In this document: positions 8,815-16,986 of the stretch, in pieces
How positions within the stretch are numbered: the stretch's first letter is position 1
Layout of the letters: every line of letters begins with the position of its first letter
Source of the DNA: Candidatus Dependentiae bacterium
GTDB lineage: Bacteria; Babelota; Babeliae; Babelales; RVW-14
Reading direction: 5' to 3'
Assembly (NCBI GenBank): GCA_018266175.1
Contig: JAFEAY010000021.1
Coordinates: 248,001-312,000 of the forward strand
DNA length: 64,000 nucleotides
Made by a program: the position numbers and the translations under genes
The notes under the pieces: model-generated
Databases searched by the model: none
Told to the model about the DNA's origin: nothing
The model's input: only the letters and a program-made list of their open reading frames with translations

Positions 8815-11394
8815 TTATGATTCTTTTCCGAGTGAATAGGCTACTAGAGGGTGTTGTCGTGTTTGTCTCGTTCCATCAGGCTTAAGGTTATTGGCTATAA
8901 GAGCCGCTTGTGGTGTATCTATTGATTCTTGCATGTCAGTTTTATGTGCAGCATTTTCCGGTGCTTGTTGTACACTGAGTCGTTGCTGGCCGCCACGCTG
9001 TTTAAGCTTTTTTGAGGCAACAGCAGCACGTGTTTGTTCAATAGCTTCTGAAACTTTGTAAAAAGGGTCTTCTGCAATACGAACCATGGTTGGTCGTTGT
9101 TGACCATAGGTAAAGTCATCAATTGGTCTAAAAATTCCGCGCTTCGTTTCACTCACTTTACTCTTGATACTCTGATTTGTTGGCTTAAAAAACCAGCGCT
9201 GAATTGGATCGCTGTCGCGGGTGTAGGTGTCGTTGCGCATCATCTGAAGTTTTGCGTAATCAAGCTTGAGCTGGGTATATTCATCCGGTTCGCCTTCAAA
9301 GCGAGGTTTGATGATGCTTGGACGCAAGAAGACATAAAGATTACCTTCAGCTTTTGATTTTGTTTTGCTTTTAAAAAAATTTCCTAAAATTGGAATTTCG
9401 GCAAGAAGGGGAGTTCTGTAGTGACTTTCTTGCTGATCTCCTCGGGTAAGACCACCCAGTACAAGGACTTCTCCTGTCATAAGAGAAACACGTGTTTTAA
9501 GAGAGCGGGTTGATTTTGTAGGAGTGTCAGGGTCTGATGAATCTGCTTTAAATTCATCAATATTAATATCAAGTGTCAGGTCTACAAAGCCGTCAACATT
9601 AATAGAAGGCGTTAGGTCAATTTTGACTGAAGCCGGTACGTCAACTTGTCGTCTGCGAGACTGTTCGCCATGACTACTTACAAAATCTCCAGGAATTCTT
9701 CGAGTTTCTTTGACTTCAACAAAGCATGGCTGATAATTATTTGCAACTAAAAAAGGTTGAGAAACGATGTGAGAATTATTAATGTTAAAAGCAGAACGAA
9801 TAACTGCCCAGATTGATTGGTTAGCGGTTGTTGCTCCACCAAACGTTAAAAAGCTCGGTGACCCTTTACCTAGATTATCAGGATTGGTGAGCTGTATCAT
9901 ATTTGAAACAGTTTTGCCATCAGTAGTTTTTGTTGAGGGCAAGGAGCTTAAGTTTTTAAAATCAATTTCGTTAATGCCAAGTCCCGGATTTTTGCCTCTA
10001 AAGTTATGCATTTGAGCGCCAAGTTCTCGAGACTGGTCAAGGTTGACGTCTATAATCATAACTTCAATTGCAACTTGTGGTTGTGGTTTATCTAATTTTT
10101 CAATGAACTGCTCGAGTCGGCTCCAGTCATCTTTATTGCACGCAATAATTAGGCGATTTCCGCTTCCCCGTTTTCCTTCACCAGCAGCTTCGGCTGTTTC
10201 ATTGGCGATCAGTACGTCTTCAAAAAATTTATACTCGCCAACGACAGCACTTTTTTCAGATCCTTGTCCTTTTGGAGGTCTGACAATGTTTTCAAGAATA
10301 GGTCGGAGAACTTCTGCTTTTGCATGTCTAATTTCTTTGATGTGTAAACGCGAGTCGGCATCACCAATAGGGACATCCAAGTTTTTTTGAATGAAACCAA
10401 CAATTTTATTGATGTTTACTTCGGTCCCAAGCAAAATTAATGAGTTTTTTGATTGGTCAGGAATAATCTTTGTTGTTGAAGAAAAATAACGTTTTTCTTG
10501 TTGGGATGAAAGTGGGCTGAAGCGAATAGTACGCTGCTCTTCTTGTCCTCCACCTAAAACATCTTTAAAAAGGTCATGAATTGTTTGTGCATCAGCATAT
10601 TTTAGTTTTATTACTTGGATTGATTCACGCAAGCCACCCGTATCAAGCTCTTTGATTATTTTCAGTGCCGCCTTGATATTAGAGCATTGCTCTTTGATAA
10701 TACATGCATTTAAGTCTTTATTAATGATCGTTGCTTTTTCACCAGGAAGCAGTTGACGCAAAATTGCCTCAGCAACTTCTGCTTTGATATTTTTGAAGAA
10801 ATAAACGTAACGAACAATCATATCGTTATCGGGAAGGTCTTCAGGTTCAATCCCTTTTTTAGTGCCATATTCAAGTGATGAGTAGGTTGGTAGCGGCTCT
10901 TGTGCATTTTCTTTGTTCGAAACAACACGGTGCATGCCATCAACATTCACGATAGTGAAGCCATTCATCTCCATGAGCGTGAGGAGTACATCCCATGCTC
11001 GCGTGAGAGTGAGTGGAGCGCGCGTAGAAAGTGTTACCTTGGCAGCTTCAAGATCTTTATGGGGCAAAATATTAATGTTTTTTAGGTCACCCAGGTAGTT
11101 GACTACATTTAAAAGTGAGACTGCATTAAAGTTGAGATAAATGTTCGCTTCTTCTTCATCTTTTTTTACCTCATGTCCAACTGCAATTGGACTATCTCCT
11201 TCTGCTGTTATTGTTGGTAATGCAAGGGGAGATGGTGCTTTGCTCAATTCTTGTGACGAAGCGTTTATTTGCTCTTGTCCTTGAGCTTGCCCGAACATGA
11301 CGTTTGCGGTGGGTGCAAGAGCTGTATCTGCAGCAAAGCAGGTAGTTGTAAGAAAAATGATGAGTATGAGTGGTAAAATTATTTTTCTTAACAT
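8815..11394 (-). CDS. gspD: Secretin 2 (GspD/PilQ-type outer-membrane channel)
   Basis: Secretins form multimeric gated channels in the outer membrane for type II secretion or type IV pili. The order seen is a signal peptide (MLRKII..., ending FAA), a linker with SPLALP, an N0-like domain starting at about residue 80 (IYLNFNAVSLLNVV), N1-N3 domains with repeated IKLKYADAQ-type strands, and a C-terminal secretin core with GEVLVLGGL and TPLLAEIPILGNFF. A roughly 190-residue extension with DPIQRWFF and DPFY follows. The frame is open further upstream to 11622, but that part translates a palindromic element; the signal peptide marks 11394 as the start. The length of 859 residues is larger than typical GspD (about 650-700). 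It is a paralogue of the secretin at 13864-16986. Confidence 0.88.
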   Translation of the reverse strand: MLRKIILPLILIIFLTTTCFAADTALAPTANVMFGQAQGQEQINASSQELSKAPSPLALPTITAEGDSPIAVGHEVKKDEEEANIYLNFNAVSLLNVVNYLGDLKNINILPHKDLEAAKVTLSTRAPLTLTRAWDVLLTLMEMNGFTIVNVDGMHRVVSNKENAQEPLPTYSSLEYGTKKGIEPEDLPDNDMIVRYVYFFKNIKAEVAEAILRQLLPGEKATIINKDLNACIIKEQCSNIKAALKIIKELDTGGLRESIQVIKLKYADAQTIHDLFKDVLGGGQEEQRTIRFSPLSSQQEKRYFSSTTKIIPDQSKNSLILLGTEVNINKIVGFIQKNLDVPIGDADSRLHIKEIRHAKAEVLRPILENIVRPPKGQGSEKSAVVGEYKFFEDVLIANETAEAAGEGKRGSGNRLIIACNKDDWSRLEQFIEKLDKPQPQVAIEVMIIDVNLDQSRELGAQMHNFRGKNPGLGINEIDFKNLSSLPSTKTTDGKTVSNMIQLTNPDNLGKGSPSFLTFGGATTANQSIWAVIRSAFNINNSHIVSQPFLVANNYQPCFVEVKETRRIPGDFVSSHGEQSRRRQVDVPASVKIDLTPSINVDGFVDLTLDINIDEFKADSSDPDTPTKSTRSLKTRVSLMTGEVLVLGGLTRGDQQESHYRTPLLAEIPILGNFFKSKTKSKAEGNLYVFLRPSIIKPRFEGEPDEYTQLKLDYAKLQMMRNDTYTRDSDPIQRWFFKPTNQSIKSKVSETKRGIFRPIDDFTYGQQRPTMVRIAEDPFYKVSEAIEQTRAAVASKKLKQRGGQQRLSVQQAPENAAHKTDMQESIDTPQAALIANNLKPDGTRQTRQHPLVAYSLGKES

Positions 11395-11441
11395 TATGGG
11401 TAATTTTTGAATTGTTAAAAATTGTATGATTTTCAGGGGGA

Positions 11442-11519
11442 TGTCATCCCTGGCTACGATCGGGGATCTACCCTTAAAACTTTCTTCTTCAATGGATCCC
11501 CGCCTGCGCGAGGATGACA
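11442..11519. repeat. 78-bp palindromic intergenic element (MITE/REP-like)
   Basis: Outer inverted repeats TGTCATCC (11442-11449) and GGATGACA (11512-11519) enclose inner inverted repeats GGGGATC (11462-11468) and GATCCCC (11495-11501). It is locally GC-richer than its surroundings, lies in the 242-base gap between the gspM-like gene and secretin 2, and leaves the secretin 2 frame open upstream. It resembles the TCATCC/GGGGATC-type small palindromic repeats dispersed in many bacterial genomes. No second copy was seen in this window. Confidence 0.7.
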
Positions 11520-11636
11520 AACCCGTGAAGAAAAGTGTTTTGAAGAACTGTATAAGTTTAAAGAATAAAATATTTTGATTGAGCTGTTTTACTTTTGCAT
11601 AAGCATATTTTAAATAGACCATAACCTAATCCCCCA

Positions 11637-12188
11637 CTAAGAGCTGATGCCTTTTTTAGGCCTGACTGTTCCGATTCGTAATTCAGTTGTAATTTTTTGG
11701 TTAGGTTCACTGCGAATGGTAACCTCTTTGAGATAGGTTGTTTCCTTTTTATCCAAGGCATCAATAACTTGAACTATTTTTTGCGTACTTTGTCCTTTAA
11801 AGGTTGCTTGCAAAATGGTTTCAGTAAATTTATCCCCAATGTCAGATGAAGTGGTATCCCATCCAGCTTCAGCCGTAATGTTTTGCTGCTTACAGAATAG
11901 TTCAAAATATGATTTTATATTAAAATCTTTTTCTTGTTCAAAAAGCGTTTGTATGCGTTGTTGTTCTTGAAGGAGTTGATCATTTTCGGCTAAGACAAGC
12001 GCGGTCTTATCGCTTAATCGTTGAAGGTTTGTTATTTGCTCAATATACCAAGCGCTTGTTGAGGAAATATAATAAACAATTCCAAGAGCTGTAACTAATA
12101 CGATTGCTAAAAAGATTATGAGATAACGCTCAAATTCTTTTTTTGATAACTCTTGAAGCATCGACATAATTTTTGTGAACTGTTTCAT
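11637..12188 (-). CDS. gspM: GspM/PilO-like inner-membrane assembly protein
   Basis: A 183-residue bitopic protein has a short cytoplasmic N-terminus, one membrane helix at about 22-41, a coiled-coil segment rich in Q and E, and a small alpha/beta periplasmic domain. This is the layout of PilO/GspM, which pairs with PilN/GspL in the inner-membrane platform of type IV pili and type II secretion. Sequence identity to known members is not obvious. The call rests on topology, on the position 2 bases after the gspL-like gene and on the flanking secretins. Confidence 0.7.
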   Translation of the reverse strand: MKQFTKIMSMLQELSKKEFERYLIIFLAIVLVTALGIVYYISSTSAWYIEQITNLQRLSDKTALVLAENDQLLQEQQRIQTLFEQEKDFNIKSYFELFCKQQNITAEAGWDTTSSDIGDKFTETILQATFKGQSTQKIVQVIDALDKKETTYLKEVTIRSEPNQKITTELRIGTVRPKKGISS

Positions 12189-12190
12189 AA

Positions 12191-13867
12191 TTACTTATCT
12201 CGAGGTTTGAGTTTTGCGGTAAATGGAATGCCGCGCTCTTCTGCTGGAGAATCATCAATTTCTTGGGCAAGCGTGAATAATGGTGATTCTTCAAACCTAT
12301 TTTTAAACTGTGCAAAATTTTCCCACAACGGTTGTCCTAGTGGTGCTTTAAAATAGCCCTCTATTTTAACAAAAGTAATACCCTCTTTGCTTGGAGCTAT
12401 TGAAACATAAGCAATTGTGACGTCTGGAAATTTTTTCTTATCAATAATGTTGGTTATTTCTTCAAGCATTTCGAGGGGTTTGAGGCGATCTTTGGTAAAA
12501 GGCGCCCACAGAGCATTGGATTCTTGTAAGAGCTTTCCACTTTCTTTAACCAAGTTTTGAAGGGTTGGTCGCTTGGGCAATTTATCTTTGGGAAATATAC
12601 TTTGAAGTCGACGTTTTTCGCGAACTTCAATTCGATTTACAATGCCCGAAAGATACGAAATATTTTGGTAACCTCGAACACCTAAAAATGTTAAGAAAAA
12701 AACAAGGAGTACGCTTGCACAAATGAGCTGCTTAAACAGTAATGGATCATAAATCTTCGTAAAGTCTTTGCGACGCAAGTCGAATGTTTCCAATAGTGGT
12801 GCAGGGAGCGTTATACCTAGTGCAATAGCAAAGGGGTTCCATGATGTAGGCTGAATCGCTACTTTGTTAACAATCCATTTTTCCTTGAGTAATTTTTTTG
12901 GATCAAATTGCTGACAAGGAATTTGCAAAAGGTTTCCAGAGAATTGTATTAAATTTTTAACATCAGTTCCTTTACCTGCAAACAGAATTTTTTGAATGCC
13001 TTCATAATAATTAAGCTTGAGACTGAACGAGTTGAGTGTAAATTGAATGTCATTAAAAAGAGCTGACATCTGTTTTTGAGCACTACGTTGATATTCTTCA
13101 TCTGCTGGATAGTCAACACCTGAAATATAAAGCCGCTGTAAGACTTCAGAGATTGGCATATTTATTTCATCACTTATGCTCTTTGCGACAGTATTAATGC
13201 CTCGTTGAATGTGTCGTGTGAGGCGAAACTCGCCATCTTGTAAAAAAGCAATGCGTGTGCTGTTTTGACTGATGTCTACGAGCGCCGTTCCATGAGGTGT
13301 TGTTTTGTATTCTTCAATCTGAAGATACAAGCTGTAGAGTGCAAATAAATCAATAGTGATAGCGTTTGGGTCAATGCCTGCTTCTAAAAATGGATCTAAT
13401 ATATTTTTTAAATCATGCTTGCGAACAGCTGCAACAAGTACCTGAGAAGTCTGTTGATCAGAGTTTCTCTTGGTAATAATAAAATCGGTAATTGCTTCGT
13501 CAATTGAAAAAGGGAGCATATTTTCAACTTCATATTCAAGAACCATGCGAATTTTTTCAACATCAAGAAAGGGAACTTGAAGCTCTTTAAAAATAACGAT
13601 TGATGCCGGAACGCAAATGCGTACGTGATCATATTTCCCAACCTGAGAGAAGCAATTGCGTAGTCCATCGCTTATTTTTTCCTCATACGTTTGTCCGTTT
13701 GCACTTTCAATTGAGCACGAAACAAGCGCCTGGATAATTGTTTTTGCCGGCTTGGCGTGAACCAATGCTCCATAAATTGTATCATCCTGAAGAGCGATAC
13801 CTAAAATACGTTGAGCAATCAGGCGACGATTACGAAATTTTTCTGGTAAAAATAGTTCTGTAATCAT
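12191..13867 (-). CDS. gspL: GspL-like protein (PilM actin-like domain fused to PilN-like domain)
   Basis: Residues 1 to about 330 have the actin-like PilM fold: LGIALQDD at the start, VEKIRMVLEYEVENMLPF, ALVDISQNSTRIAFL and the HIQRGINTVAKSI segment. One membrane helix lies at about 375-400 (VLLVFFLTFLGV), followed by a periplasmic coiled coil and a small alpha/beta domain ending at residue 558, like PilN. A PilM-PilN fusion is the GspL architecture; GspL anchors the secretion ATPase GspE to the inner membrane. No gspE, gspF or pseudopilin gene lies in the window. The start codon overlaps the stop of secretin 1 by 4 bases (ATGA), indicating translational coupling. Confidence 0.85.
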   Translation of the reverse strand: MITELFLPEKFRNRRLIAQRILGIALQDDTIYGALVHAKPAKTIIQALVSCSIESANGQTYEEKISDGLRNCFSQVGKYDHVRICVPASIVIFKELQVPFLDVEKIRMVLEYEVENMLPFSIDEAITDFIITKRNSDQQTSQVLVAAVRKHDLKNILDPFLEAGIDPNAITIDLFALYSLYLQIEEYKTTPHGTALVDISQNSTRIAFLQDGEFRLTRHIQRGINTVAKSISDEINMPISEVLQRLYISGVDYPADEEYQRSAQKQMSALFNDIQFTLNSFSLKLNYYEGIQKILFAGKGTDVKNLIQFSGNLLQIPCQQFDPKKLLKEKWIVNKVAIQPTSWNPFAIALGITLPAPLLETFDLRRKDFTKIYDPLLFKQLICASVLLVFFLTFLGVRGYQNISYLSGIVNRIEVREKRRLQSIFPKDKLPKRPTLQNLVKESGKLLQESNALWAPFTKDRLKPLEMLEEITNIIDKKKFPDVTIAYVSIAPSKEGITFVKIEGYFKAPLGQPLWENFAQFKNRFEESPLFTLAQEIDDSPAEERGIPFTAKLKPRDK

Positions 13868-16800
13868 GCTGTAGCCTTTCGTGTGAAGCGGCTAACCGAG
13901 GAGAGTTTTTTTTCCTGTGCAGCTTGCTGAGCAAGAAATTCTTTAAGTTTATTACGTTTTGATGGGTCGATAAATTGTTCTTGTCTTGAAGGACTCGATG
14001 TTTCGTTATCGGCAAAGATATCTTTAAGTTGTTGTCTTTTTTGTTCAATTGGCTGTTCGGATGAACTTTGATTGTCTGGATTAAGAAGCGTTTTGAGTTG
14101 TTCACGTTTTTGTTGCTCATCAGGGAAAGAGGCAATAGTTTGTTTAAATTGCGCACGATTTTTATCTTCGGGCAAATCTTGTGCGATAAGATTTTTCATA
14201 CGCGTACGTTTTTTTTCCAGTGGCTGATAAGGAGTATCAGGCTCCGCTGAATAGTACTGAGCATCAGCTGGTACGCCGTTAAGGAGTGCTTTGAGTTTTC
14301 TTCGTTTAGCATCTAAGTCGGTTTCAGATGGAAGTTGATACGCTGTTTGTTCTGCTGATCTGCGATCGTACTGAATGGTTGGTTGTGTTGGTTGAGAAAG
14401 AGTTTTTTGTCGTGGAGCTGCAAGAAGTTGTTGATCTTCAGCCCGTGCTATTTCTCGTACAAGCTTTGGAGGATTTATATCGGTTAGTGGCAGCTCTTGC
14501 ACAAGTTTTTCAAGTGTGCCTGAAGATTGTGTGAGTGGTAGTTGCTGCGCAGGCTGTGGTTGCGTCATATCTAAGCCAACTAACTTTTTCTCTTGCACAG
14601 GTTCTTCGCGATAATTATTCTGTTGAGTGATTGGCGTTGCATCAAGTTGCAGCGCATGACGACGAAGTTTTTGTTCTTCTTCGGTATTTTTTTTATCCTC
14701 TTCAAGTTCTTCTCTCCGGGTTTGAGATCGATAGTATGGATCGTTACGAATATCAACCGTTGTTGGCTGATAGCGCGCATTTGCAAAATCGATAACTTTG
14801 TGTGAATAATTTTCTTTTTCAGGGTTAAAAAACCAATTATGAACAGGATCATTGCTTGGAGACGTTTGAACCGCTTGCTCAAGGCTTTCTGTTGCTGCAT
14901 GCATTTTCATTTTGGTGTACAGCTGTGTTCCAGGTGTTTGGCGTGGTTTGATGATGGTTGGTACCATAAAAATGAAAATATAGTCTTTGGTTATAGACCT
15001 TTTTTGATTTTTAAAAAACCATCCCAAAACAGGTATATCGCTTAAAATTGGAGTTTTTGCTTTGTCTTCTGAAACTTTTGTTTTAACAAAACCACCAAGT
15101 ACTAAAACCTGCCCGTTTGCCACGGTGATGCTTGTTTTTACCGTTTTATCGTTACGAATAGTTCCATCATCACTCGAAAAATCTTGAATAGTAACCGTCA
15201 TATCCAGGCGAATGAGACCCTCTAAATTGATTTGTGGAGTAACGTCAATACTTGTATTGACCGGAACGCTTTCAAATGATTTGGTTCCGCTGCCATCAGC
15301 TACTTCAGTAACAACTCGTCGCTCTTCTCCAATCTTGATTGTTGCAGCAGTCTTGTTGCTGACGGTTATAAATGGTTGAGAAAGCACTGTTGCATTGGTT
15401 TGTTGCTTAAGAATATTAAAAACACTCCAGATGTTTCCTGTTGCAGCTTTACCAAAACTCAAAAGCGTAGAGCCTTGAGCAACTACTAGCTGATTGATTA
15501 AGTTACCAAGCAAACTTACAGGATCACTGCCAGCTCCACCTGAAAGCTCTTGAGTTGTTTTTCCGGTGAGCGGTACTGATTGAAAATCGACATTATGTCC
15601 AACTTGGCCATGCTTTTTGTTTCGCACCATGCCGCCGAGCTGTTTAATGTCAGTAGAATTTACCGTAACAATAAGAGTTTCGATAGCGACCTGTGGTTGA
15701 GGCTTATCAAGATCTTTGAGTGTTTTTTTCAGCATTTTCCAGTCGTGTTTATCGGTGCATGAAACAATCAGGCGATTGCCATCTTTATCAACTTGAAAGC
15801 TCATTGATTTGAAATATTTAACCCCACCACGAATGGCACCATATTTTCCTGCCGCTTGTCCAACTGATGATTCAGGGGCTTGGGTAACTTGTTCAAGAAT
15901 CTCTTTCATGGCTCCAGCATCGGTATGTTTGCATTCATAAATATGCAGGGGTGATGCGGCAGCAACAAGCTCGGTATCAATGTGAGTTGTAATAAATTTA
16001 ATAATCTTATCGATTGAAGCGTTATTGCCCAGCAAGATGAGCGAGTTTGTTCGCTCTTCGGGAATGATGCGGGTGGTTGCAGAAAAATACTCTGTAGCAC
16101 CTTCTGCTGTTTTGCCTAGTAAACGAGCGAGTGGATTAGTATCCGGTTTTTTGATGAGTGCATCAAGAAGCTCTTTTACATCTTTGGCATTTGCTTTTTT
16201 GAGCTGTATGACCGTGACTGTTTCTTGTAAGCCAATTTGGTCGAGCTCCAATAAAAGCTTTGCAGCAGCTTTAATATTGTATGATTTATCGGTAATAATA
16301 AAAGCGTTAGCATCCTGATGGTCAATACAGCCATTAGGGGTACTGAGCATGCTTATGAGTAAGTCTTTAACATCAGTTACTTTGATGTTTTGTAAAAACA
16401 TAACATAACGAATTTCAAGGTCACTGTTTGGTAACGTGTCCGGTGAGACGTTGATATACGAAGGCAGCGCTTCAGTCAGTTTTTTGTCTTTGGGAAGAAC
16501 TTTCCATACTTCGCCTGACTTAATCATTGAAAAGCCTGAGGTTTCAAGTACGGTCAAGAAAACACTCCATGCGCCATCAATGCTTAAAGGGTCACGAATT
16601 GTAAGCGAAATTTTTGCTTCTTCAATTCCTTTATCCGGAATGATATTCAGATTTTTCAGTTCAGCCATGTAGGTGACAAAATTGCCAAGCGTTGTATTTT
16701 CAAAGTTCAGATAAATATCTTTTTTAGGTGCTGCTTGTGCTTCACTAAGTTGACCCAGCGCTGTATCAGCTGAGGGAATAACCGGTAGCGCAAGAGGAGA

Positions 16801-16986
16801 ATCGGTAAGAACCACAGGATTCATTTGTCCTGTTTGTGAACTTTCGCCAGGCTTTGATGCAACATCAGTTCGTTCAGAATCTTGTAGGGATCCTTGAGGG
16901 CTGTTTGATGGATTGTCAGCACAATGAACAAGCTGCCCAGCTCCAGCAAGCAAGAAAAATAAAATCAGATAGTGGTGTTTGTTCAT
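13864..16986 (-). CDS. gspD: Secretin 1 (GspD-type) with long charged C-terminal repeat tail
   Basis: An outer-membrane secretin of 1040 residues. It has a signal peptide (about 22 residues), a linker with SPLALP, an N0 domain (IYLNFENTTLGNFV, from about residue 90), N1-N3 domains, then the secretin core with NGQVLVLGGF and TPILSDIPVLGWFF. A segment with DPVHNWFFNP and DPYY follows, shared with secretin 2. Beyond this lies a roughly 290-residue tail rich in Q, E, K and R with five copies of a KRxxLKxLL-type motif. Typical GspD ends soon after the core, so the tail is unusual. It lies directly downstream of the gspC-like gene. Confidence 0.9.
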   Translation of the reverse strand: MNKHHYLILFFLLAGAGQLVHCADNPSNSPQGSLQDSERTDVASKPGESSQTGQMNPVVLTDSPLALPVIPSADTALGQLSEAQAAPKKDIYLNFENTTLGNFVTYMAELKNLNIIPDKGIEEAKISLTIRDPLSIDGAWSVFLTVLETSGFSMIKSGEVWKVLPKDKKLTEALPSYINVSPDTLPNSDLEIRYVMFLQNIKVTDVKDLLISMLSTPNGCIDHQDANAFIITDKSYNIKAAAKLLLELDQIGLQETVTVIQLKKANAKDVKELLDALIKKPDTNPLARLLGKTAEGATEYFSATTRIIPEERTNSLILLGNNASIDKIIKFITTHIDTELVAAASPLHIYECKHTDAGAMKEILEQVTQAPESSVGQAAGKYGAIRGGVKYFKSMSFQVDKDGNRLIVSCTDKHDWKMLKKTLKDLDKPQPQVAIETLIVTVNSTDIKQLGGMVRNKKHGQVGHNVDFQSVPLTGKTTQELSGGAGSDPVSLLGNLINQLVVAQGSTLLSFGKAATGNIWSVFNILKQQTNATVLSQPFITVSNKTAATIKIGEERRVVTEVADGSGTKSFESVPVNTSIDVTPQINLEGLIRLDMTVTIQDFSSDDGTIRNDKTVKTSITVANGQVLVLGGFVKTKVSEDKAKTPILSDIPVLGWFFKNQKRSITKDYIFIFMVPTIIKPRQTPGTQLYTKMKMHAATESLEQAVQTSPSNDPVHNWFFNPEKENYSHKVIDFANARYQPTTVDIRNDPYYRSQTRREELEEDKKNTEEEQKLRRHALQLDATPITQQNNYREEPVQEKKLVGLDMTQPQPAQQLPLTQSSGTLEKLVQELPLTDINPPKLVREIARAEDQQLLAAPRQKTLSQPTQPTIQYDRRSAEQTAYQLPSETDLDAKRRKLKALLNGVPADAQYYSAEPDTPYQPLEKKRTRMKNLIAQDLPEDKNRAQFKQTIASFPDEQQKREQLKTLLNPDNQSSSEQPIEQKRQQLKDIFADNETSSPSRQEQFIDPSKRNKLKEFLAQQAAQEKKLSSVSRFTRKATA

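Follow-up and report, generated by a model that had tools for sequence, protein, structure and literature searches.

The window analysed here is a stretch of 64,000 nucleotides (G000:C21:248001-312000) from a Dependentiae (TM6) genome of 1.83 Mb in 30 contigs. Its minus strand carries a run of six genes, namely moxR, gspC, an upstream secretin gene (secretin U), gspL/pilM, gspM, and a downstream secretin gene (secretin D) (Table 1). This order had been read from the sequence in the original prediction, which also described the locus as one type II-like operon with two tandem paralogous secretins. Both points were confirmed: the two secretins are intact, full-length, and paralogous, with 34% identity over 739 aligned residues (E 2e-131). 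The nearest named relatives of U come from Dependentiae/TM6 metagenome bins. Across the phylum, the median intergenic gaps are short (7 bases between gspC and the first secretin, −4 between this secretin and gspL, −2.5 between gspL and gspM, and 7.5 between gspM and the second secretin), and the genes were thus considered to form a single operon.

Table 1 Features of the two-secretin operon (window positions; amino acid positions in brackets) and enlarged operons in other Dependentiae genomes.
Feature	Position	Strand	Evidence or remark
AAA+ ATPase of the MoxR family, first in the cluster	18243..19268	-	Pfam AAA_3 4.7e-65
GspC-like protein, HR (T2SSC) and PDZ domains	17009..18178	-	Pfam T2SSC 8.2e-09, PDZ_2 2.6e-05
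Secretin U (upstream, GspD-type), 1040 aa	13864..16986	-	Pfam, NCBIfam; clade U in trees
N0 domain of U (aa 93-163)	16498..16710	-	Pfam PF21305 5.3e-10
Secretin core domain of U (aa 526-680)	14947..15411	-	Pfam PF00263 2e-33
Post-core DPxxxWFFxP segment of U (aa 713-722)	14821..14850	-	Sequence DPVHNWFFNP
GspL/PilM-N-like inner-membrane platform protein	12191..13867	-	Pfam PilM_2 5.6e-24, T2SSL 1.5e-07
GspM/PilO-like protein	11637..12188	-	Size, single N-terminal hydrophobic segment, position
Secretin D (downstream, GspD-type), called ORF of 935 aa	8815..11622	-	Pfam, NCBIfam; clade D in trees
Palindromic repeat in the 5' part of the called D ORF, between gspM and Met77	11432..11529	-	Contains GTCATCCTCGCGCAGGCGGGGATCC; 18-nt arms 83% complementary; once in the window
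Probable start of D (Met77 of called ORF)	about 11394	-	Opens a signal peptide
N0 domain of D (aa 163-233 of called ORF)	10924..11136	-	Pfam PF21305 1.2e-06
Secretin core domain of D (aa 615-772)	9307..9780	-	Pfam PF00263 1.3e-31
Post-core DPxxxWFFxP segment of D (aa 805-814)	9181..9210	-	Sequence DPIQRWFFKP
Operons with three or four secretins	L021 (G004), L069 (G011), L108 (G012), L036 (G042)

In the 54 genomes in which the neighbourhood was read, moxR was found upstream of gspC in 49, and the GspM/PilO-like ORF was recognised between gspL and D in 52. The HR domain of the GspC-like protein was detected by T2SSC above the Pfam cut-off, and the NCBIfam GspC models remained under their cut-offs, although the match to GspC_delta (2.5e-20) extended across most of the protein. 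PilM_2 and T2SSL both matched the GspL/PilM-like protein above the Pfam cut-offs, PilM being the best match. The GspM/PilO-like protein gave no significant match in Pfam or NCBIfam and was assigned from its place and size. ExeA of Aeromonas is an AAA+ protein that helps assembly, and the MoxR-family ATPase of the operon might assist in a similar way, a guess made from its position. MoxR proteins are typically partnered by Bat-like vWA proteins; a BatA/BatB-like pair of neighbouring vWA membrane proteins is encoded at L117 1114-3117 (G000:C25:207-209 kb), far from the moxR gene of the operon.

A domain search had been proposed for both secretins. Each was found to contain a GspD N0 domain (PF21305), two Secretin_N stretches (PF03958), and the Secretin domain (PF00263), all above cut-off, and no AMIN domain was matched by Pfam in either protein. 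The best NCBIfam model was the GspD equivalog (TIGR02517), matched over its full span with 288 bits for U and 275 bits for D. Since these scores fall under the cut-off of 351 bits, we classified both proteins, from their sequences, as GspD-type rather than GspD proper. The PilQ model yielded half of these scores (146 and 139 bits, for a cut-off of 284). A joint U and D profile aligned to the GspD structure 5zdh from N0 to the core (E 1.4e-67, residues 94-678). The operon thus shares with PilQ of type IV pili a secretin core and an L protein that matches PilM best, but differs from it by the GspD-type N0, the missing AMIN match, and the lower PilQ score. As in GspD of type II secretion systems (TIGR02517; PDB 5zdh, 5wq7, 5wq8, and 6hcg), N0, N1-N3, and the core align end to end, and the two genes lie beside gspC and the putative gspL and gspM in a genome that encodes a GspE-type ATPase over the curated cut-off. 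In contrast to GspD systems, Dependentiae have two ancient paralogs, both scoring under the GspD cut-off and bearing an extra conserved post-core segment; their E, F, and pseudopilin genes are located elsewhere, and a moxR gene heads the cluster.

When 54 U and 56 D sequences were aligned together, the same residues were conserved at a level of at least 80% in the two clades, over a stretch reaching from N0 as far as the post-core segment. Per-domain identity was slightly lower within the D clade (0.32-0.37) than within the U clade (0.41-0.42), and among the folded domains, identity between U and D was lowest in N0 (0.245-0.275). It had been envisaged that one copy might be a degraded remnant or lack the beta-barrel gate and lip strands. 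However, the core is conserved in both, and dN/dS between close genomes ranged from 0.03 to 0.25 for D and from 0.06 to 0.28 for U, with one pair saturated at synonymous sites. As judged from these sequence comparisons, U and D are under similar purifying selection and neither copy is degraded.

AlphaFold models computed from nine sequences each were poor (mean pLDDT of 50 and 51, pTM of 0.28 and 0.29), and for this reason only the local order of strands was used; the same series of long core strands was present in both. The top Foldseek matches were PulD, with E values of 1e-25 to 1e-28 but TM-scores of about 0.16-0.25, and therefore add little to the sequence comparison. A search for a lipobox in U or D returned only scattered weak matches. 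The called D ORF is probably over-long at its 5' end, where it includes a palindromic repeat, and Met77 is the likely start of the protein.

The original prediction had also pointed to two shared short sequences. One of them, a DPxxxWFFxP segment followed by DPxY after the core, is present in both proteins, the second part reading DPYY or DPFY, and a search for it had been recommended. The strict form DPxxxWFF was found in only 19 U and 33 D sequences, but in the relaxed form DPxxxx[FY][FLYIV] the segment is a feature of the phylum (47 of 54 U and 52 of 56 D) that is absent from all 23 comparison secretins (22 from other lineages and the PilQ-type secretin of the window genome). A nine-sequence alignment showed that D carries, in addition, an insertion of 11 residues (around GIFRPIDDFTY) missing from U. 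The post-core segment is located at the place of the pilotin-binding S domain of GspD, and a role in outer-membrane targeting or in clasping a neighbouring subunit would thus be likely. The other sequence, the linker SPLALP, is indeed identical in both window secretins (aa 63-68 of U and aa 131-136 of D), but it was found in no other U or D sequence; it is thus private to the window genome rather than a family feature, and its sharing may be due to chance or to a past exchange involving both genes.

The distribution of the pair was then considered across the phylum. Secretins were detected in 96 of 101 Dependentiae genomes, and the order gspC, secretin, gspL, gspM, secretin was observed in all 54 genomes read, including the window genome, one secretin being split into two frames in two of them. 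The two genes lie on one contig in 82 of the 96 secretin-bearing genomes, that is, these 54 genomes, one more that was read (L072 of G067), and 27 in which the pair was recognised from coordinates (4-6 kb apart on one strand). In the other 14 genomes the pair is broken across contigs, and all nine of the broken contigs that were read end where the partner belongs, one of them showing a truncated partner. No lone operon secretin in an intact neighbourhood was found in the 96 genomes, which are drafts; related genomes with a single secretin in such a neighbourhood, a finding that would have spoken against the prediction, were thus not observed. That U and D were never found apart suggests, from gene content, that the outer gate may need both.

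Copy number varied in the other direction. D is doubled in three genomes and both U and D in one, and these extra copies stay in the same operon. The rule of one secretin per type II system is therefore not followed in Dependentiae, with two secretins in the operon and three or four in G004, G011, G012, and G042. In the five genomes without a secretin, PilM_2 matches were either weak and located in frames of MreB- or FtsA-like length, or missing. GspL thus appears to be missing as well, and the whole block seems to be absent. Two of these genomes, G087 and G017, are about 96-97% complete and contain the ATPase and GspF without a secretin or a clear GspL; loss of the whole block is possible in both.

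A phylogeny of secretins from related genomes, also proposed beforehand, placed U and D in two deep clades, fitting one ancient duplication. In a careful tree of 43 sequences, the Dependentiae pair was set apart from the seven included secretins of other lineages (100/100), and the U copies of the window group, the remaining U copies, the D copies of the window group, and the remaining D copies each received support of 99-100. Joining of both D groups was supported at 87/78, and the monophyly of U was not rejected by the AU test (p 0.463). In a quick tree of 133 rows, the window-group D copies fell beside U (94), so that the two trees differ on this point and the deepest U/D split is not firmly settled by these sequences. 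Replacement or gene conversion of the window-group D, as the quick tree might indicate, was set aside since the 43-sequence tree moved these copies to D and did not reject a single U clade. A local duplication was ruled out by the phylum survey and the trees. The sequence data would most simply be explained by one duplication, no later than the base of the phylum.

To what extent the two proteins evolve together was estimated from distance covariation. After removal of the signal of the other four operon proteins, the partial correlation between U and D was 0.60, and that of the next pair was 0.33. At equal length (180 columns each), it was 0.36 for U and D versus at most 0.26 for other pairs. 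Only one column was conserved but different between U and D, and with so few such positions no clear complementary interface was visible.

The genes for the remaining parts of the machine, for which a search had been advised, are present outside the secretin operon. The window genome encodes an ATPase of 569 aa that passes the GspE cut-off (648 versus 630 bits), a GspF on contig C25, N-methyl pilins, and a prepilin-peptidase-like ORF in L016 that was recognised by eye only. It also contains a second ATPase of 419 aa as well as a PilQ-type secretin, the latter at G000:C21:45 kb; the separate cluster at this place (L014 8468-13644, G000:C21:45-50 kb) includes a GspE-type ATPase over cut-off, PilO/PilP-like ORFs, and the PilQ-type secretin. 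Both this type of secretin and the short ATPase have a patchy distribution across the phylum, the former occurring only in some families, whereas the operon pair is unsplit. Eighteen genomes (G013-G016, G018-G020, G022-G028, G030, G031, G034, and G035) have exactly two secretins with exactly one full-length T2SSE ATPase over cut-off (570-612 aa) and one GspF, counted as exactly two T2SSF domains. No second E-family ATPase, such as the retraction ATPase PilT of type IV pili, was found in these 18 genomes. U and D should therefore share one motor in them, unless a second one is hidden by an assembly gap.

The operon, the co-retention of the pair, and the single motor make it very likely that U and D both belong to one type II-like machine. 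It had been suggested that one of the secretins might be part of a different machine; this now appears unlikely in view of the phylum-wide co-retention in the operon and the 18 single-motor genomes. In particular, the idea that one of them serves a type IV pilus and is merely encoded in the operon draws on the presence, in some genomes including that of the window, of a PilQ-type secretin and a second ATPase. However, the window genome has this PilQ-type secretin in its own right, the 18 genomes keep U and D with one ATPase and one GspF, and both proteins score closer to GspD than to PilQ, all of which renders a pilus secretin very improbable. Even less credit can be given to a dosage effect or a leftover copy without a role of its own. 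Tandem duplication of a secretin does occur elsewhere, in an 81% identical pair, and extra copies exist in four Dependentiae genomes, but 34% identity, two deep clades dating from the base of the phylum, and similar purifying selection already disfavour it.

Two arrangements within one machine were weighed. We tentatively propose that the operon encodes the envelope-spanning part of the machine and that its outer channel could require two GspD-type subunits, U and D, that co-assemble. GspC, GspL, and GspM would tie both to the same pseudopilus motor; U and D would assemble together in the outer membrane, most simply as a mixed ring and possibly as paired or stacked rings; and proteins with signal peptides would leave the cell through this channel, a predicted multimeric outer-membrane channel for folded proteins. 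It is also possible, albeit with less confidence, that U and D form two homomeric channels docking on the same C-L-M-E-F platform, for different substrates or at different stages, for example in free-living cells and within a host. This alternative agrees with the general knowledge that known secretins are homo-oligomers and with the complete domain set that U and D each keep, including an N0 for GspC. N0 is the domain of secretins that faces GspC, and its low U-D identity would fit different docking. In addition, Pseudomonas aeruginosa offers a precedent for an alternative secretin, XqhA beside XcpQ, with two secretins for one type II machine; XqhA is nevertheless an accessory encoded outside the main cluster, whereas U and D are both in one operon phylum-wide. 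On the other hand, the operon has only one gspC, and under genome reduction two separate channels should occasionally lose one member, which was seen in none of 96 genomes even though PilQ and the second ATPase are absent from many lineages.

We lean slightly towards co-assembly, as the secretins are never single, the operon is tight, the distance covariation is strongest for this pair, and extra copies remain within the operon. Against co-assembly, only a modest covariation is left at equal length, two paralogs that share a fold could covary in the absence of contact, hardly any position suggests a complementary interface, and contact between U and D is so far a prediction from sequence. To our knowledge, the solved secretin structures that we found are homomeric rings, and the literature searched yielded no heteromeric secretin. 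A hetero-oligomeric ring built from two obligate GspD paralogs would be the first natural two-subunit secretin channel; such a ring is possible but less likely than not.

A published study describes a type II secretion system for Babela massiliensis and TM6SC1, and for Babela it is said to be the only secretion system (PMC4378268); the main text of that study does not use the word secretin and reports no second one. For Chromulinavorax, pilus proteins were described together with the suggestion that a derived pulD channel might serve them (PMC6561590). The literature searched yielded no report of a type II operon with two secretins, nor of two secretins in Dependentiae. Secretin rings are described as having a single type of subunit, and a phylum-wide two-secretin operon allows the rule "one machine, one secretin" to be tested, the outcome being either the first mixed secretin or one motor with two outer gates. 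Either outcome would also point to how the host-dependent Dependentiae export their large predicted secretomes.

Outside the phylum, a tandem pair of long paralogs was observed once among 71 sampled secretin-bearing genomes, each from a different family. This pair, in G138 (L094, G138:C90), resembles U and D in that two full-length secretins of about 1000 aa each are encoded next to each other, downstream of L- and M-like genes. Unlike U and D, its members are adjacent instead of flanking gspL and gspM, and their 81% identity indicates a recent, independent duplication. The near pairs L078 and L088, from two further phyla, were set aside, as they belong to different secretin clades or sit on long unsure branches and, as far as seen, are not paralog pairs. 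Finally, in G164, two proteins of about 330 aa were found next to a larger one.
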